Source of the DNA: an uncultured Pelagibacteraceae bacterium
GTDB taxonomy: Bacteria > Pseudomonadota > Alphaproteobacteria > Pelagibacterales > Pelagibacteraceae
Assembly: GCA_902557385.1 (NCBI GenBank)
Contig: CACDZF010000009.1
Span: 1-32,540 of the forward strand
DNA length: 32,540 nt
Direction: 5' to 3'
The number at the start of each line of letters is the position of its first letter. Position 1 is the stretch's first letter. This document shows, piece after piece, positions 1-32,540 of this stretch. Made by a program: the position numbers and the translations under genes. The notes beneath the pieces were generated by a model. That model saw nothing but the letters and a program-made list of their open reading frames with translations. It made no database searches and was not told where the DNA came from.

Positions 1-1239
1 CGCAACTACTGTTGATAAAAGGCCTATTATTGCTAAGAAATACATTGACTGCTGGAGCACAGCTTTAAAAAATGTAAAATTTTGCAAAAAAACCTGCCAT
101 GGGTGGAATTCCAGCCAGTGAAAACAATGTGACTAATAATGAAAGTGCAATCAGTGGATGATTTTTTCGATAAACCTGACAAATCATCAATATTTTCGTA
201 ATATTTGTTTTCTCTTTTTAGCATAAATAAGCAACTAAAAAATCCAAAATTCATTACAAGATATATAGTTATATACAATACTGAACTTTGAATTCCTAAG
301 TTGGTTCCGGCACATAAGCCTGCTAATGCATAACCCATATGTCCAATAGAGCTATATGCAATTAGTCTTTTAAGATTTTTTTGACCTATTGCAGCTACTG
401 CTCCAAAAATCATCGAAGCAACAGATAGAAAAACTATTATTAATTGCCATTGATCAATTACATTAAAGAAAGGAACATATAAAAACCTAATAAAAACAGT
501 TATTGCTGCTATTTTTGGTGCTACTGCAAAAAATAATGTAACGGACGTTGGTGAACCTTCATAAACATCTGGAGCCCACATGTGAAAAGGAACTGCAGAG
601 ATTTTAAAAGCTAAACCGACAAGTATAAATACTATTCCAAATGTAAGTCCATATTGATTATCATCCATTATAATAGAAATCTCTTCAAAATTCGTTGTTC
701 CTGAGAAACCATATATTAATGAACATCCATATAATAAGAGTCCTGAAGATAAAGCGCTTAAAACGAAATATTTAAGCCCAGCCTCAGATGAACTAACTTG
801 ATCTCTATTAAAGGATGCCAGGACATACAAAGCTAATGATTGCAACTCAAGGCCAATATAAAAAACAATTAAATCGTTTGAACTTATCATCACAAATATT
901 CCCAATATAGAAGATAAAATTAGTATTTGATATTCTATTTGAAATATTTTAAAAATTTTTAAAAATTTAGATGATGTTATTAAAACAAAAATTCCTGACA
1001 ACACTGTTAAAATTTTCATATACGATGAGATAAAATCAATTTTATAACTTCCATTAAAAATCTCTATATTGGTATTTGCTGGATAGTTAAAAATTAAAAC
1101 TAAAGTTACAATAAGGGTCAATATTGATAGAATATTTATTAAATTGGAACTATTTTTTTTTAAATACACCTAAGATTAATAAAAACATTATTGAAAGTGA
1201 AATAAATATTTCAGGGTAAATAAAGTTAAGATTATCCAT
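1..1239 (-). pseudogene. nuoN: nuoN, complex I subunit N, frame broken at three homopolymers, 3' end beyond the window
   Basis: NuoN is an antiporter-like proton-pumping membrane subunit of NADH:quinone oxidoreductase. The true start is the ATG at 1239, read as MDNLNFIYPEIF; it overlaps the nuoM stop by 8 bases. The frame hits TAG at 1150-1152 after a run of nine A (1153-1161). Dropping one A lets reading continue through typical NuoN sequence (FYIGLELQSLALYVL, FKISAVPFHMWAPDVYEG, LKRLIAYSSIGHMGY). A second shift lies in six A at 162-167, where one base fewer gives SKNHPLIALSLL. A third lies in six T of the coding strand at 67-72, where one base fewer gives FYIFKAVLQQSMYF. After the three corrections about 412 codons run in frame to the window edge, so roughly the last 70 residues would lie outside. 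Every correction is removal of one base. A GTG at 1169 opens the longest uninterrupted frame, but it is not the natural start. Sequencing error, slippage or real decay are all possible. Confidence 0.85.
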
Positions 1240-26839: not shown

Positions 26840-27607
26840 ATGTTTCTTAAAAAATATAATTTAAAAAATAAAATTGCTTTAGTATCAGGTGCTGGAAAAG
26901 GATTAGGGAGAGCTTGTGCAATTGCCTTGGCTGAAACTGGAACAAATTTAATAATAATAAGTCGAACTAAAAAAGACTTAGATGAAGTATCAAAAAAAAT
27001 TAAAAAATATAAAGTAAAATGTAAATCTTATATTTGTGACGTTACAAACTACAACCAAATTAAAAATATTATAAATCAACAAACAAGAATTGATATTTTA
27101 GTTAACAACGCTGGAAACAATATTCCAGAACATTTTACAAAAGTGAAAACTAAAGATATGGAATACTTGGTTAAAATCAATACTATTGCGGCTTTTAATT
27201 TAGCTCAGTTATGTGCAAATAAGATGATAGAGCTTAAAAGTAGAAAAAAAGTAGGAGGTTCAATTATTAACATGTCTTCACAAATGGGCCATGTTGGTGG
27301 ACCAATTAGAAGTGTTTACAATATGAACAAATGGGGTTTGGAGGGTTTGACGAGAGGTATGGCAGTTGATTTAGCCAAATATAATATAAGAGTAAATACA
27401 GTAGCACCAACTTTTGTTGTAACTCCAATGACTAAGAAGTTTTTAAAAAATAAAAAATTCAAAAAAGAAATTTTGAATAATATACCCCTTGGTAGATTTG
27501 CTGAAATGTCAGAAATAGCTTCTGCTGTTGTTTTTTTAGCCTCTGATGCTGCATCAATGGTGCATGGAACTTCTTTATTAGTTGATGGCGGATGGACTGC
27601 AAAATAA
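26840..27607 (+). CDS. short-chain dehydrogenase/reductase (SDR)
   Basis: A 255-residue NAD(P)-dependent oxidoreductase of the classical SDR type. The cofactor motif SGAGKGLG is at residues 16-23, the NNAG motif at 89-92, Asn114 in the middle, Ser146/147 (NMSSQMG) and the catalytic YNMNK (Tyr160, Lys164). The C-terminus AAVVFLASDAASMVHGTSLLVDGG WTAK form is typical of gluconate 5-dehydrogenase and FabG-like enzymes. The acidic residue expected after strand 2 for NAD is replaced by Ser-Arg (IIISRTKKD), which favours NADP. The substrate is not deducible. The next gene starts 16 bases before its end. Confidence 0.92.
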   Translation: MFLKKYNLKNKIALVSGAGKGLGRACAIALAETGTNLIIISRTKKDLDEVSKKIKKYKVKCKSYICDVTNYNQIKNIINQQTRIDILVNNAGNNIPEHFTKVKTKDMEYLVKINTIAAFNLAQLCANKMIELKSRKKVGGSIINMSSQMGHVGGPIRSVYNMNKWGLEGLTRGMAVDLAKYNIRVNTVAPTFVVTPMTKKFLKNKKFKKEILNNIPLGRFAEMSEIASAVVFLASDAASMVHGTSLLVDGGWTAK

Positions 27608-28386
27608 TAAAATATACTCTATTAATTTTTTTAATTAATTTCAAAGTATTCTCAGCTGAATTTCAAGGACAATTTATTCAAGGGCATTATATAATAGGAA
27701 AAACATCGCCCGGAACTAAAATACTTATTGATAAAAGAGAAGTAAAAGTCAGCGAAGAAGGTTATTTTGCATTTGGTATAGATAAAGATAGAAAATTTGA
27801 TGTAGTTATAACTGAAGGAAGTAAAAAAATAATAAAAAAAGTCCAAAAAAGAAAATATAAAATTCAAAGAATAGATGGATTGCCAGAAAAAAAAGTAACG
27901 CCACCTGAAGAATTTTACGAAAGAATTAAGAAAGAAAATAAATTAATTGCAAAAGCAAGAGCAGTTGAAAGTGATTTATCTTTTTTTAAAGACAAATTTA
28001 TAGTGCCTGTTGATAATGCAATTATTACCGGCGTATATGGGAGTCAAAGAATCTTAAATGGAATACCAAAATGGCCTCATTATGGTTTAGATTTTGCTCA
28101 AAAAAAAGGTTCGCCAATAAAAGCAATGAATAATGGAATAGTAACTTTGGCTGAGCAGGATTTATTTTACACAGGAGCAACATTAATATTTGACCATGGC
28201 CACGGCATTTCTACTTTATACATGCATTTAGATAAAATTTTTGTAAACGTTGGTGATCATGTTAAAAAAGGAGAAGTCATAGGAACGGTTGGATCTTCGG
28301 GACGTGCTACAGGGCCTCACTTAGATATCAGGCTTAATTGGTATGATACAAGACTAGATCCTAATTCAGTTTTAAATATTAAATGA
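27592..28386 (+). CDS. secreted M23-family (LytM-type) metallopeptidase
   Basis: A 264-residue exported protein that probably cuts peptidoglycan cross-bridges or regulates amidases. A signal peptide spans residues 1-22 (FKVFSA-EFQ). An all-beta region (30-100) precedes the M23 domain, where His163 and Asp167 (HYGLD) are zinc ligands, and GHGISTLYMHL contains His212. GPHLDIRLNW contains His243, but Asp245 stands where most M23 enzymes have the second His of HxH. An Asp can serve as zinc ligand, and I believe this HLD form occurs in other proteobacteria, so activity is likely but not certain. The ATG at 27592 overlaps the SDR gene; its stop overlaps the next gene as ATGA. Confidence 0.92.
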   Translation: MDCKIIKYTLLIFLINFKVFSAEFQGQFIQGHYIIGKTSPGTKILIDKREVKVSEEGYFAFGIDKDRKFDVVITEGSKKIIKKVQKRKYKIQRIDGLPEKKVTPPEEFYERIKKENKLIAKARAVESDLSFFKDKFIVPVDNAIITGVYGSQRILNGIPKWPHYGLDFAQKKGSPIKAMNNGIVTLAEQDLFYTGATLIFDHGHGISTLYMHLDKIFVNVGDHVKKGEVIGTVGSSGRATGPHLDIRLNWYDTRLDPNSVLNIK

Positions 28387-29135
28387 GATTTAAATTTAAT
28401 AAAAAAATAGAATTTTTTTTAAAGAAAAATTTCTTACCCCAAAGCTACTTATTTGAGAAAAGAATTAAAAGATCAATAAAAAATAATGATGAAAAAGAGT
28501 TACAGCTTTTAAAAAAAATTATAATTCCTGAAACTGATACTATAGATATTGGGGTCTATAGAGGGGTGTATAGTTATGAAATGGCAAAATATTCAAAAAT
28601 GGTGCACGCGTTTGAGCCAAATCCAATTATATTTAAAGATATCGAATTGAACCTAAGTAAAATAATTAAAAATATTAATTTATATAATTTTGCGTTATCT
28701 GATAAAGAAAATAAAGTTTTGCTCAAAGTCCCCATTAGAAACAAAAATTATGATAAAAGTAATTATGAAGAATATTTTCAGATGGGTAGAGCAACAATTC
28801 ATGAACAAAATGTAATGGGAGATATAGAAACTTTTGAGATTAAATCTAAAAAATTGGATAATTTCACTTTTTCTAATAGAATATCATTTATAAAAATTGA
28901 TGTAGAGGGACATGAAATGTCAGTAATTAAAGGGGCTGAAAATACTATTAAACAATATAAACCAACACTGTTAGTTGAGATTGAGGAAAAACACTCAAAA
29001 CAAAAAGTATTAGATTCAATAAATTACATTAATTCACTGGGATATGAATCTTTTTTTTATGACAATGAATTAAAAAACACTAATAATCTAAATAATTTGA
29101 ATATGTACAACAATTTTATTTTTAAACCTTGCTAA
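28383..29135 (+). CDS. FkbM-family S-adenosylmethionine methyltransferase (second copy type)
   Basis: A 250-residue FkbM methyltransferase. The SAM motif is DIGVYRGVYS at 55-64, AFEPNP lies at 76-81, and the family signature KIDVEGHEMSVIKGA is at 171-185, followed by the strand TLLVEIEEKHS. It differs strongly from the FkbM protein at 14062-14895 and is not a recent copy of it. It is translationally coupled to the peptidase gene by a 4-base ATGA overlap and lies 4 bases before the hydratase-like gene. The substrate is unknown; coupling to a cell-wall peptidase fits an envelope glycan role but does not prove it. Confidence 0.88.
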   Translation: MRFKFNKKIEFFLKKNFLPQSYLFEKRIKRSIKNNDEKELQLLKKIIIPETDTIDIGVYRGVYSYEMAKYSKMVHAFEPNPIIFKDIELNLSKIIKNINLYNFALSDKENKVLLKVPIRNKNYDKSNYEEYFQMGRATIHEQNVMGDIETFEIKSKKLDNFTFSNRISFIKIDVEGHEMSVIKGAENTIKQYKPTLLVEIEEKHSKQKVLDSINYINSLGYESFFYDNELKNTNNLNNLNMYNNFIFKPC

Positions 29136-29139
29136 ATTT

Positions 29140-29907
29140 ATGAAAATTGAAAATTTATCAAAAAAATTAGTTAATGCTTTTTTAAAAAATAAACTAATTA
29201 ATCCGCTTCCTAAAAATATTACTAAAAATATAAAAAAATCCAACGAATTTAGAAAACTATGTGAAAGTAAAATTAAAAAAGAAATAATAGGATTTAAAGC
29301 GGGAGGAACGGGAATTCCCGTTTTAAAGAAACTTAAAGAAAAAGAACCTTTTTATGCGTCAGTTTATAAGCAAAATTTTTTAAAAAGTGGAAAAAATGTT
29401 AAAATAAATAAATATACTTTAGGTGTAGAGCTTGAAGTTTGTTATTTAATTAAAAAAAAGTTTTTTTTATCAGGTCAAAAGATTTCCAAAAATAATATTA
29501 CTAAATATATAAGTCACATGGCTCCCTGTATTGAAGTTGTTGGATACAGACAAAGAAAAAAAGGTATAAAATATTTAGGTGATTTATGTAGCGATTTTGG
29601 CGCAAATATAAAATTTTTGATTGGACAAAAGAAAAAATATAAAAAAATAAATATTGGCAACTTAAAAACAAATATTACTAATAAAAAGAATAATCTATTT
29701 GTTAATGGAAACACAAATACTGTGTATATAAATCCGTTAAATTCACTAAGATTTGTTTTAAATAAAATAAAAAAAGACAGAATAAATTTAAAGAAAAATT
29801 TTTATGTATTTACAGGTTCAACAGTTGGAATTGTTCCTTTAAAAAATAAAGGTATTTATATTGGCAAGATAGAAAAATTGGGTTCTGTAAAAACTCTAAT
29901 TAAGTAA
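29140..29907 (+). CDS. 2-keto-4-pentenoate hydratase-like protein (FAH superfamily)
   Basis: A 255-residue protein resembling MhpD-type hydratases and decarboxylases, which act on 2-oxo acids from aromatic meta-cleavage. Visible family features are IIGFKAGGTG with Lys53, the metal-binding pair Glu97 and Glu99 in GVELEVCYLI, Glu132 in APCIEVVGYR, the DLCSDFGANIKFLIG block, and a late FYVFTGSTVGIVPL. The overall sequence is Lys-rich and diverged, with no aromatic-degradation genes nearby, so the real substrate is open. It is the last gene of the five-gene run, convergent with an SGNH hydrolase gene 7 bases away. Confidence 0.8.
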   Translation: MKIENLSKKLVNAFLKNKLINPLPKNITKNIKKSNEFRKLCESKIKKEIIGFKAGGTGIPVLKKLKEKEPFYASVYKQNFLKSGKNVKINKYTLGVELEVCYLIKKKFFLSGQKISKNNITKYISHMAPCIEVVGYRQRKKGIKYLGDLCSDFGANIKFLIGQKKKYKKINIGNLKTNITNKKNNLFVNGNTNTVYINPLNSLRFVLNKIKKDRINLKKNFYVFTGSTVGIVPLKNKGIYIGKIEKLGSVKTLIK

Positions 29908-29914
29908 TTATTCA

Positions 29915-30895
29915 TTATTTCAAATAACTATATAATTTTTTTCCAATATACCTATGTCCATTTTTATTAATATGATCATCAATTACAAACAAATGTTCTT
30001 TTTGCACTTTGAAATTCATAAATTCAAAATTTTCATATTTTTTATTTTCTTCGTATATTATCTCTTGATGTGGAGGATTAATTAAAAAAACAAATACTCT
30101 TTTACCCTCGCCCTTTAAATTCTGATTTATTACTTTCTCTAAATTATCTAAATGTTCAGTTAAATTATGTTTTTCTTTTCTATCATTTTCAAAAAATAAA
30201 TCATTTAAATGGGTAAATAATAATCGTAATGATTTTTTATAATGTTTTAATAAAAAAATAATTATATTAATGTTATTTTCCTTGGATTTAAAAAATTTGT
30301 CATACTCCATTTGTGTGTAGGTTTTGTTTATATTAAGATTTTTATTTTCAGCAATATCATTTAAATGATATTGAATTATTACAGTATCAACTTGATCATA
30401 AAATTTATTTAATTTTAATCTTTTTATTTCCCTCACTGTTCCATAACTTGAAACCGCAAGATTTATAACTTTTTTATTTGTTAATTTTTGTAGGTTGTAT
30501 GAAAAAGTTTCATTATCATTCACTCCCCAACCCATCGCAACTGAGTCACCTAAAACTGCAATAATTTTTTCATCTTCTTGAATATTGTCATCAACCATGT
30601 TCAATCTTCTATTTTCGTCGAAGTTCAACTTTGTTTTAAATTCTGGGTTCGAAAAAATACATTCTCCAACAACAGGTGCATAAAGAAAATTTTTGTCAAA
30701 TTTTGAACACCCTTTATTTGTCTGCCAAATCTTTACTAAACCATTAACATATAATTTTTTTTGAATATATTTGACCCAAAGTAAATCGTAAGTTTTATTG
30801 TTGATCAAAGATACATAACTAAAGGTAAAGACCAAAAAACTTAATAAAAGATAATTTATAATTATGATAAAAAAATAACCAAAAATTTTTTTCAT
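29915..30895 (-). CDS. membrane-anchored SGNH/GDSL hydrolase-like protein, copy 1
   Basis: A 326-residue protein with one N-terminal membrane anchor (about residues 5-27) and a periplasmic SGNH fold. Block I is LGDSVAMGWG with the nucleophile Ser118; block II is SYGTVRE with Gly152; block III is HLNDI with Asn179; the last block DDHINKNGH offers the catalytic His308. Such enzymes add or remove acyl groups on surface sugars or lipids. The region 225-265 is predicted helical and charged. It is a close paralog of the protein at 31650-32540; the two are separated only by a methyltransferase gene. A 91-base stretch (30095-30185) is identical to the paralog. The substrate is unknown. Confidence 0.85.
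   Translation of the reverse strand: MKKIFGYFFIIIINYLLLSFLVFTFSYVSLINNKTYDLLWVKYIQKKLYVNGLVKIWQTNKGCSKFDKNFLYAPVVGECIFSNPEFKTKLNFDENRRLNMVDDNIQEDEKIIAVLGDSVAMGWGVNDNETFSYNLQKLTNKKVINLAVSSYGTVREIKRLKLNKFYDQVDTVIIQYHLNDIAENKNLNINKTYTQMEYDKFFKSKENNINIIIFLLKHYKKSLRLLFTHLNDLFFENDRKEKHNLTEHLDNLEKVINQNLKGEGKRVFVFLINPPHQEIIYEENKKYENFEFMNFKVQKEHLFVIDDHINKNGHRYIGKKLYSYLK
30095..30185 (-). repeat. 91-base exact repeat, copy A (within SGNH gene 1)
   Basis: These 91 bases match 31836-31926 without a single difference, while the flanking aligned coding sequence differs every few bases. The stretch encodes the charged segment from DRKEKHNLTEHLDNLEK to GKRV. Confidence 0.9.
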
Positions 30896-30902
30896 TAATT
30901 AA

Positions 30903-31625
30903 TTAATATTTTTTATTAATTTTATTTAATATTTTCCTTACCTTGTAATATAAGGCCCATCCCCAGTGGCTCATGTCTTGTGGTGCCATAGTGTAATTTA
31001 AAATTTTTTCTGAATTATTAGTTCTTCCGTTCCTAAAATTTTGTATTTTATTAATGATTCTATCTGGAAATTTATTGCAGAATTTTTCATCTTTAATTGT
31101 GACTGATACATAATCACACCAAATTTCTCTGCCCCTGTGGTCTAAAGTAAAGTGTTCTAAAACCTTTGGATTAAAATTATTTTTCCTTCCCCATTTTTCT
31201 AAAGCTATAATGCTGTCCGGATAAAATCTCCAATTATCAGTTGATTGTCTATGGTAAATACCATTAGATGGCACGTTTAAAAAAAATAGTCCATCAGGTT
31301 TTAAAATTCTAAGTATTTCTAAATAAGTTAACCAAAAAAACTCAGTGTGTTCAAAAGTTGATACTGAAACCACCATATCAACAGAGCTATCAGGTAAAGG
31401 GATTTTATAAGGATCCTTTAAAACAAGATCAACGTTAGGACCGTCCTCAATATCAAGTCCAGTAAATTTGATATTAGGATCTACCAATATTCTCAAAGCA
31501 TCTGATGTAAATTTGTTTTTCTTATTTTTTATCAAAGAACCGATTTCGACAATATGAGGATTTTCAATAAATTTTAAATAAGTATTTGTAAAATTTTTGA
31601 AACTATCTAAAGCTGATTTGTGCAT
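30903..31625 (-). CDS. class I SAM-dependent methyltransferase
   Basis: A 240-residue methyltransferase of the Methyltransf_11 type. Motif I is degenerate (HIVEIGSLIKNKKNKF, residues 24-39), the SAM-ribose acidic segment is FTGLDIEDGPNVDLV, the post-motif is LPDSSVDMVVSVSTFEHTEF, and ILRILKPDGLFFLNVPS at 105-120 is the usual late motif. A conserved-looking STDNWRFYPDS near 128-138 resembles methyltransferases found in O-antigen clusters. It lies 7 bases before SGNH gene 1 and 24 bases after SGNH gene 2 on the same strand, so the three are probably co-transcribed. The substrate is unknown. Confidence 0.87.
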   Translation of the reverse strand: MHKSALDSFKNFTNTYLKFIENPHIVEIGSLIKNKKNKFTSDALRILVDPNIKFTGLDIEDGPNVDLVLKDPYKIPLPDSSVDMVVSVSTFEHTEFFWLTYLEILRILKPDGLFFLNVPSNGIYHRQSTDNWRFYPDSIIALEKWGRKNNFNPKVLEHFTLDHRGREIWCDYVSVTIKDEKFCNKFPDRIINKIQNFRNGRTNNSEKILNYTMAPQDMSHWGWALYYKVRKILNKINKKY

Positions 31626-31649
31626 GTTTTAATTTTAACGTCCTAAATA

Positions 31650-32540
31650 TTAATTTCTAGATAAATAATCAAAAATTTGTTTACCTACGAACTTATGACC
31701 TTTTTTATTCAAATGATCATCTATAATAAATAAATGCTCTTTTTTAATGTCTATTATAAAAAATTCAAAATCACTGAAAACTCTTTTTTCATCATAAATT
31801 AATTTTTGGTGTGGTTCATTAATTAAAAAAACAATTACTCTTTTACCCTCGCCCTTTAAATTCTGATTTATTACTTTCTCTAAATTATCTAAATGTTCAG
31901 TTAAATTATGTTTTTCTTTTCTATCACTTTCAAAAAACAAATCGTTTAAATGCGAAAATAGTAATCTTAAAGATTTTTTATAATTTTTTAGTAAATAAAT
32001 AATAATATTTAAATTATTTTTTTTATTTGAAAAATATTCCTTATACTCATCCATAGAATATGATTTGCTAATATCTAAACTTTTATTTTCATAAATATCA
32101 TTCAAATGATATTGAATTATTACGGTATCTATTTGGTCATAAAATTTATTTAATTTTAATCTTTTTATTTCTCTTACTGTTCCATAGCTAGCAACACCAA
32201 GGTTTAAAATCTTTTTTTTAACTAATTTTTGTAGGTTAAATGAGTAAGTTTCATCACCATTTACTCCCCAGCCCATGGTTAAAGAATCGCCTAGGGCTGC
32301 AATAACTTTTTCACTTTTGCTTATATTATCATTAGTTAAGTTTAATCTTCTATTTTCATCAAAATTTAATTTTGTTTTAAATTCTGGATTAGAAAAAATA
32401 CACTCCCCAACAACTGGAGCGTAAAGTAAATTTTTATCAAATTTTGAGCATTTTGGATCGATATTCCAAAGATTTCTTAAACCGCTAAAATATAGTTTTT
32501 TTTGAATATATTTAACCCAAAGTAAATCATAAGTTTTATT
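31650..32540 (-). CDS. membrane-anchored SGNH/GDSL hydrolase-like protein, copy 2, 5' end beyond the window
   Basis: The open frame runs to the right edge of the window, giving 296 visible residues that begin NKTYDLLWVKYIQKKLYF, which aligns to residue 33 of copy 1; the start codon and membrane anchor lie outside. An internal ATG at 32276 is not the start because strong homology continues upstream (LLYAPVVGECIFSNPEFKTK). Catalytic blocks are LGDSLTMGWG, SYGTVRE, HLNDI and DDHLNKKGH, all intact. It is the upstream member of the SGNH-methyltransferase-SGNH set and shares the 91-base identical patch. Confidence 0.85.
   Translation of the reverse strand, partial: NKTYDLLWVKYIQKKLYFSGLRNLWNIDPKCSKFDKNLLYAPVVGECIFSNPEFKTKLNFDENRRLNLTNDNISKSEKVIAALGDSLTMGWGVNGDETYSFNLQKLVKKKILNLGVASYGTVREIKRLKLNKFYDQIDTVIIQYHLNDIYENKSLDISKSYSMDEYKEYFSNKKNNLNIIIYLLKNYKKSLRLLFSHLNDLFFESDRKEKHNLTEHLDNLEKVINQNLKGEGKRVIVFLINEPHQKLIYDEKRVFSDFEFFIIDIKKEHLFIIDDHLNKKGHKFVGKQIFDYLSRN
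31836..31926 (-). repeat. 91-base exact repeat, copy B (within SGNH gene 2)
   Basis: Identical over 91 bases to 30095-30185. The first mismatch on each side was checked directly: A versus T on the left and T versus C on the right. Confidence 0.9.

Follow-up and report, generated by a model that had tools for sequence, protein, structure and literature searches.

Ectopic gene conversion between bacterial paralogs has been described for the PE/PPE genes of M. tuberculosis (PMC12046097) and for the rRNA operons of E. coli (PMC8022953). The latter study also states that RecA-dependent gene conversion occurs in bacteria and takes 50 bp as the length that RecA needs to recombine efficiently in E. 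coli. For SAR11, homologous recombination is described as widespread in one study (PMC7542561), and another reports the replacement of flexible genomic islands through homologous recombination in bacteria of aquatic habitats, Ca. Pelagibacter among them (PMC4033161). The locus presented here, from a Pelagibacteraceae (SAR11) genome, carries two tandem genes for SGNH/GDSL-type esterases, A and B, that are diverged over most of their length and identical in one short internal tract. No report of it was found among the best matches to literature searches on SAR11/Pelagibacter recombination, gene conversion, SGNH, and carbamoyltransferase, as judged by title and the opening of the abstract.

The window analysed is the entire contig 9 (32,540 nucleotides) of a genome of 959,851 bases in 39 contigs, estimated to be 81% complete. 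The nearest named relatives in the SGNH locus search are uncultured Pelagibacteraceae genomes, of which AG-430-G21 is the closest found. The features discussed are listed in Table 1; the genes of the divergent block were named from Pfam and NCBIfam, the hydratase scoring far below its NCBIfam cut-off. The 5' end of copy B is truncated by the contig end at 32540, the counterpart of the first 32 codons of A is missing, and the alignment of B with A begins at residue 33 of A. Contig 3 of this genome starts within the 3' terminal part of a gene for a carbamoyltransferase. In AG-430-G21 a carbamoyltransferase gene (Pfam PF02543 and PF16861) that is 95% identical to the one on contig 3 is located directly upstream of the SGNH gene (locus L039). 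From this start and this gene order it follows that copy B very probably sits after the carbamoyltransferase gene, with a gap of ~140 bp between the two contigs.

Table 1 Coordinates of the features discussed, in positions of the window
Feature	Coordinates	Strand	Basis
Copy A, SGNH/GDSL-type esterase gene, hydratase side	29915..30895	-	ORF, 326 aa
Copy B, SGNH/GDSL-type esterase gene, carbamoyltransferase side	31650..32540	-	ORF open at contig end
Methyltransferase gene, between copies A and B	30903..31625	-	Pfam PF08241 above cut-off
Identical tract of 91 bp, copy A (codons 237-267); probable donor	30095..30185	-	Exact identity and permutation tests
Identical tract of 91 bp, copy B; probable recipient	31836..31926	-	Exact identity; distances to AG-430-G21
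Divergent block (M23 peptidase, FkbM methyltransferase, and hydratase-like genes), adjoins copy A	27592..29907	+	Nucleotide divergence vs AG-430-G21

Copy B scores above the cut-off of PF00657 (28.7 bits vs 23.6), while copy A gives a sub-threshold match to PF13472 (22 bits vs 32.9). Both resemble the LA_2486-family SGNH/GDSL esterase of NCBIfam, at scores far below the cut-off. In an alignment of 19 sequences, consisting of A, B, and 17 of the 18 Pelagibacteraceae homologs compared below, G116 D117 S118, N179 D180, D306, and H308 are invariant; we take GDS to represent SGNH block I, the N block III, and the D/H pair block V. The spacing of the catalytic D and H is D-x-H in this family, and D-x-x-H is usual among SGNH enzymes. 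An AlphaFold2 model of copy A (pLDDT 89.6) starts with an N-terminal helix (residues 2-31) and matched TesA (1j00) in Foldseek with an E value of 2.3e-5 and TM scores of 0.35 over the model length and 0.60 over the target length. The Foldseek matches in the PDB include the SGNH-type enzymes TesA, EstL5, and CE2 esterases, at an identity of only about 8-15%, and a single weak match, to a lysophospholipase L1-like esterase (E = 0.0065), emerged when PDB sequences were searched with a profile. The fold is thus predicted to be of the SGNH type and TesA-like. The GDS, ND, and D/H residues are common to A/B and the described SGNH/GDSL hydrolases (PF00657, PF13472, LA_2486); the differences are the N-terminal helix, the low identity to solved structures, and the low NCBIfam scores. 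The tract encodes residues of a helix-strand-helix region of the model that lie between the catalytic blocks.

Over 294 aligned codons the two copies have 215 amino acids and 691 of 882 nucleotides in common. The initial annotation had pointed to a 91-bp identity between them, wobble positions included, and this proved to be exact (91/91 bases), with a mismatch at each border. Between gene nt 97 and 975, A and B differ at 188 of 879 sites, all of them among the 788 outside the tract and none among the 91 inside it (Fisher p = 1.3e-10). The next longest identical runs measure 35, 20, and 18 nt. The tract is far longer than the divergence of the paralogs predicts, as none of 20,000 permutations gave a run of 91 nt or longer and the shuffle maximum was 63. 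The excess of identity extends to silent sites: 0 of the 30 whole codons in the tract differ, compared with 55 of the 185 same-amino-acid codons elsewhere (p = 8e-5). The longest series of same-amino-acid codons without a silent difference comprises 39 codons, and a series of that length or longer arose in 3 of 20,000 shuffles of the silent differences within each amino acid. An even spread of synonymous differences had been named as an observation that would speak against conversion; by permutation, the differences are strongly uneven along the aligned genes. Past the 3' border, a lone mismatch at gene nt 802 is followed by 17 further identical nt, and the tract may measure ~109 bp rather than 91 bp. 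As AG-430-G21 agrees with B and not with A at nt 802, A was probably mutated at this position after the event.

Purifying selection on the peptide, the RNA, or the DNA might also hold such a tract identical, and constraint is a fair suspicion because the amino acid sequences of A and B are identical in the tract as well. Of the 36 SGNH loci found, the 18 from Pelagibacteraceae were compared, the AG-430-G21 locus was handled separately, and the 17 from other groups were omitted. Within the tract, all 18 homologs share only 3-10 of 29-31 residues with A; over residues 33-195 the same homologs match A at 69/160 to 100/163 positions. The assembly of AG-430-G21 breaks inside the SGNH gene and covers 66 of the 91 tract bp, 12 of which differ from A and from B alike. 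K265 is the sole tract residue that is invariant in the 19 sequences. When 30-residue windows of A/B were ranked by divergence from nine nearer homologs out of the 18, the window covering the tract (238-267) came 25th most divergent of 264, with zero A-B mismatch despite this high divergence; away from the tract, the divergence between A and B tracks that from the outgroup, with a correlation of 0.64. RNA folding gave nothing unusual (z = +1.0 and +0.9), and an Rfam search of the tract returned no match up to E = 1. Conservation among homologs does not account for the tract, and its poor conservation in relatives contrasts with the conserved patch that had been proposed as refuting evidence. 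The uneven distribution of the differences, combined with this poor conservation, speaks against a constraint on the coding sequence or on the RNA or DNA, so that recombination is left as the explanation. Selection at the level of protein, RNA, or DNA, the latter two having been the alternative given in the initial annotation, was rejected on the basis of the relatives, folding, and Rfam, and is hardly credible. Gene conversion or a short recombination between tandem copies, the event it had put forward, is supported by the statistics of the tract and its low conservation in relatives.

Error correction or graph simplification during assembly could have turned nearly identical stretches into identical ones. 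The window is a full contig of an incomplete 39-contig assembly, copy B is cut at the contig end, and a nuoN gene near the opposite end appears frameshifted at homopolymers. Assembly collapse, however, acts on sequence that is nearly identical, whereas the two genes differ at about 1 base in 4 elsewhere, so that the tract would already have needed a far greater likeness than its flanks. Moreover, each copy keeps its own distinct flanks and an open frame. An artefact is for these reasons very unlikely. The nuoN-like frame (33-1169, minus strand; PF00361) appears shifted twice, near 67-72 and 162-167, and NuoN-like sequence, judged by NuoN motifs, goes on in other frames near the contig end. These frameshifts probably represent an assembly error at the contig end, although the gene is possibly broken.

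The SGNH sequence of AG-430-G21 consists of a 5' fragment at one contig end and a 3' fragment at another, which may derive from one gene (gap of ~150 bp) or from two genes (~1.9 kb missing). The 5' fragment is B-like, with 44/489 differences to B and 82/489 to A, while the 3' flank downstream of the tract is A-like, with 30/174 differences to A and 51/174 to B. The distance from A to AG-430-G21 is 16% in the 5' part, 18% in the tract part, and 17% in the 3' part, and its rate in the tract (12/66) is like that in the adjacent 3' part (p = 0.85). The distance from B to AG-430-G21 is 18% in the tract, like that of A, and 29% downstream; this contrast (12/66 vs 51/174) has p = 0.10 and concerns one relative, whose two fragments may come from different genes. 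Over the 66 tract bases, A and B differ at none and A and AG-430-G21 at 12 (p = 2.8e-4). Set against each other, A-B and A-AG-430-G21 differences change from 55:30 downstream to 0:12 inside the tract (p = 1.6e-5, the counts being not fully independent). Taken with the p of 0.10, these distances are suggestive of a transfer from A, on the hydratase side, to B, on the carbamoyltransferase side. The carbamoyltransferase genes of this genome and AG-430-G21 differ at 7.5% of nucleotides, so a conversion as old as the split should by now show ~7 differences over 91 bp; none is seen, and the conversion would therefore postdate the split from the AG-430-G21 lineage. Eight consecutive informative sites at gene nt 415-435 of L039 agree with A within the B-like half. 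In a shuffle test this pattern arose in 65 of 20,000 trials, the site having been chosen after looking, and it is a possible second mosaic tract.

Divergence from AG-430-G21 amounts to 1.7% for TerC, 5.6% for the transporter, and 7.2% for the SDR gene, and to 22.1% for the M23 peptidase, 26.4% for the FkbM methyltransferase, and 24.6% for the hydratase-like gene. Judged by these values, the latter three genes appear to form a divergent allelic block that ends near the SGNH genes, and comparison with its AG-430-G21 counterpart (L079) points to allelic replacement at a glycan-type cluster. The counterpart contains an extra FkbM-type methyltransferase gene (L079:277-1170).

Protein and DNA searches of this genome for a third SGNH copy yielded only A and B, plus weak matches on contig 2. 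Elsewhere, matches were found in five of 201 genomes, one each, three of them only weak and partial (E 5.5e-8 to 2.5e-4). At E <= 1e-20, four genomes had one match each among 399 genomes besides AG-430-G21, which was recognised in that sample by its contig numbers and positions, and at E <= 1e-30, 12 genomes had one each among 397. The three samples overlap, and a more diverged second copy below these thresholds would go unlisted. A DNA search of 61 genomes with a 263 bp query gave, outside this genome, only short matches (longest ~100 bp), which were left unused. The methyltransferase located between the copies had no match at E <= 1e-5 in any of the nine incomplete genomes with SGNH relatives, AG-430-G21 included. 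In the genus search it found itself and three homologs, being matched at E <= 1e-10 in three of 398 other genomes, and is rare in the genus. Its 49% homologs at loci L092 and L093 adjoin a gene of 269 aa (DUF4422 in L092), and no SGNH gene was present among the ORFs listed there. Pattern-based protein searches of IMG/VR confirmed no SGNH relative, a 63-bp piece of the tract had no exact match, and a phage collection gave only a match of 34% coverage to Staphylococcus phage PH15, of which it contains two records. A phage or viral carrier was accordingly rejected.

The patch might instead mark the site of a crossover through which the tandem was built or remodelled: incoming DNA with a diverged SGNH gene and the methyltransferase would have joined a resident single gene there, making B or both copies hybrids of resident and foreign halves. 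In one version of this scenario, the incoming DNA also brought the divergent neighbours of the SGNH allele. Such an origin would fit the B-like 5' and A-like 3' fragments of AG-430-G21, the missing methyltransferase match in its incomplete assembly, the single SGNH match per genome in the other sampled genomes at the thresholds used, and the divergent block adjoining copy A. A simple single-crossover insertion, however, needs a switch in the distance between A and AG-430-G21 at the tract, where this distance stays level, and two orthologous copies in AG-430-G21 whose middle is absent from the assembly explain the pattern equally well. Both the general scenario and the version with divergent neighbours are unlikely, to the same degree; the latter, if true, would mean that a SAR11 glycan-type gene cluster grows through sub-gene homologous joining.

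The tract thus most likely results from a recent ectopic homologous recombination between A and B, most simply a gene conversion. The two homologous genes, which lie 1,741 bp apart in matching orientation, would have recombined within the gene in a presumably RecA-dependent event. One copy, likelier B, would have had ~91 bp (at most ~109 bp) overwritten by the sequence of the other, likelier A, and this left a patch of identity in a pair of genes that elsewhere differ at 24% of aligned sites. A tract of only 91 bp is short, and flanks that are 20-30% different should hinder RecA recombination; both points count against conversion. This reading is drawn from one assembly and from genome collections with one genome per species.

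The event is of a well-known type with a textbook mechanism and represents ordinary bacterial recombination. The locus offers a clean example of recombination between diverged copies over ~100 bp in a small SAR11 genome, and a warning that tandem genes of this kind can yield mosaic gene trees. As in the PE/PPE genes and the rRNA operons, an exact tract common to two copies in one genome makes for a mosaic gene; in contrast to those systems, the conversion is here deduced from a single assembly, with no unconverted sister strain for comparison. The rRNA operons are also far less diverged outside the tract than paralogs A and B. The replacement of flexible islands likewise places a divergent block beside genes of low divergence in SAR11. 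It concerns whole clusters exchanged between strains, however, whereas the patch described here is smaller than a gene and common to two copies within one genome.
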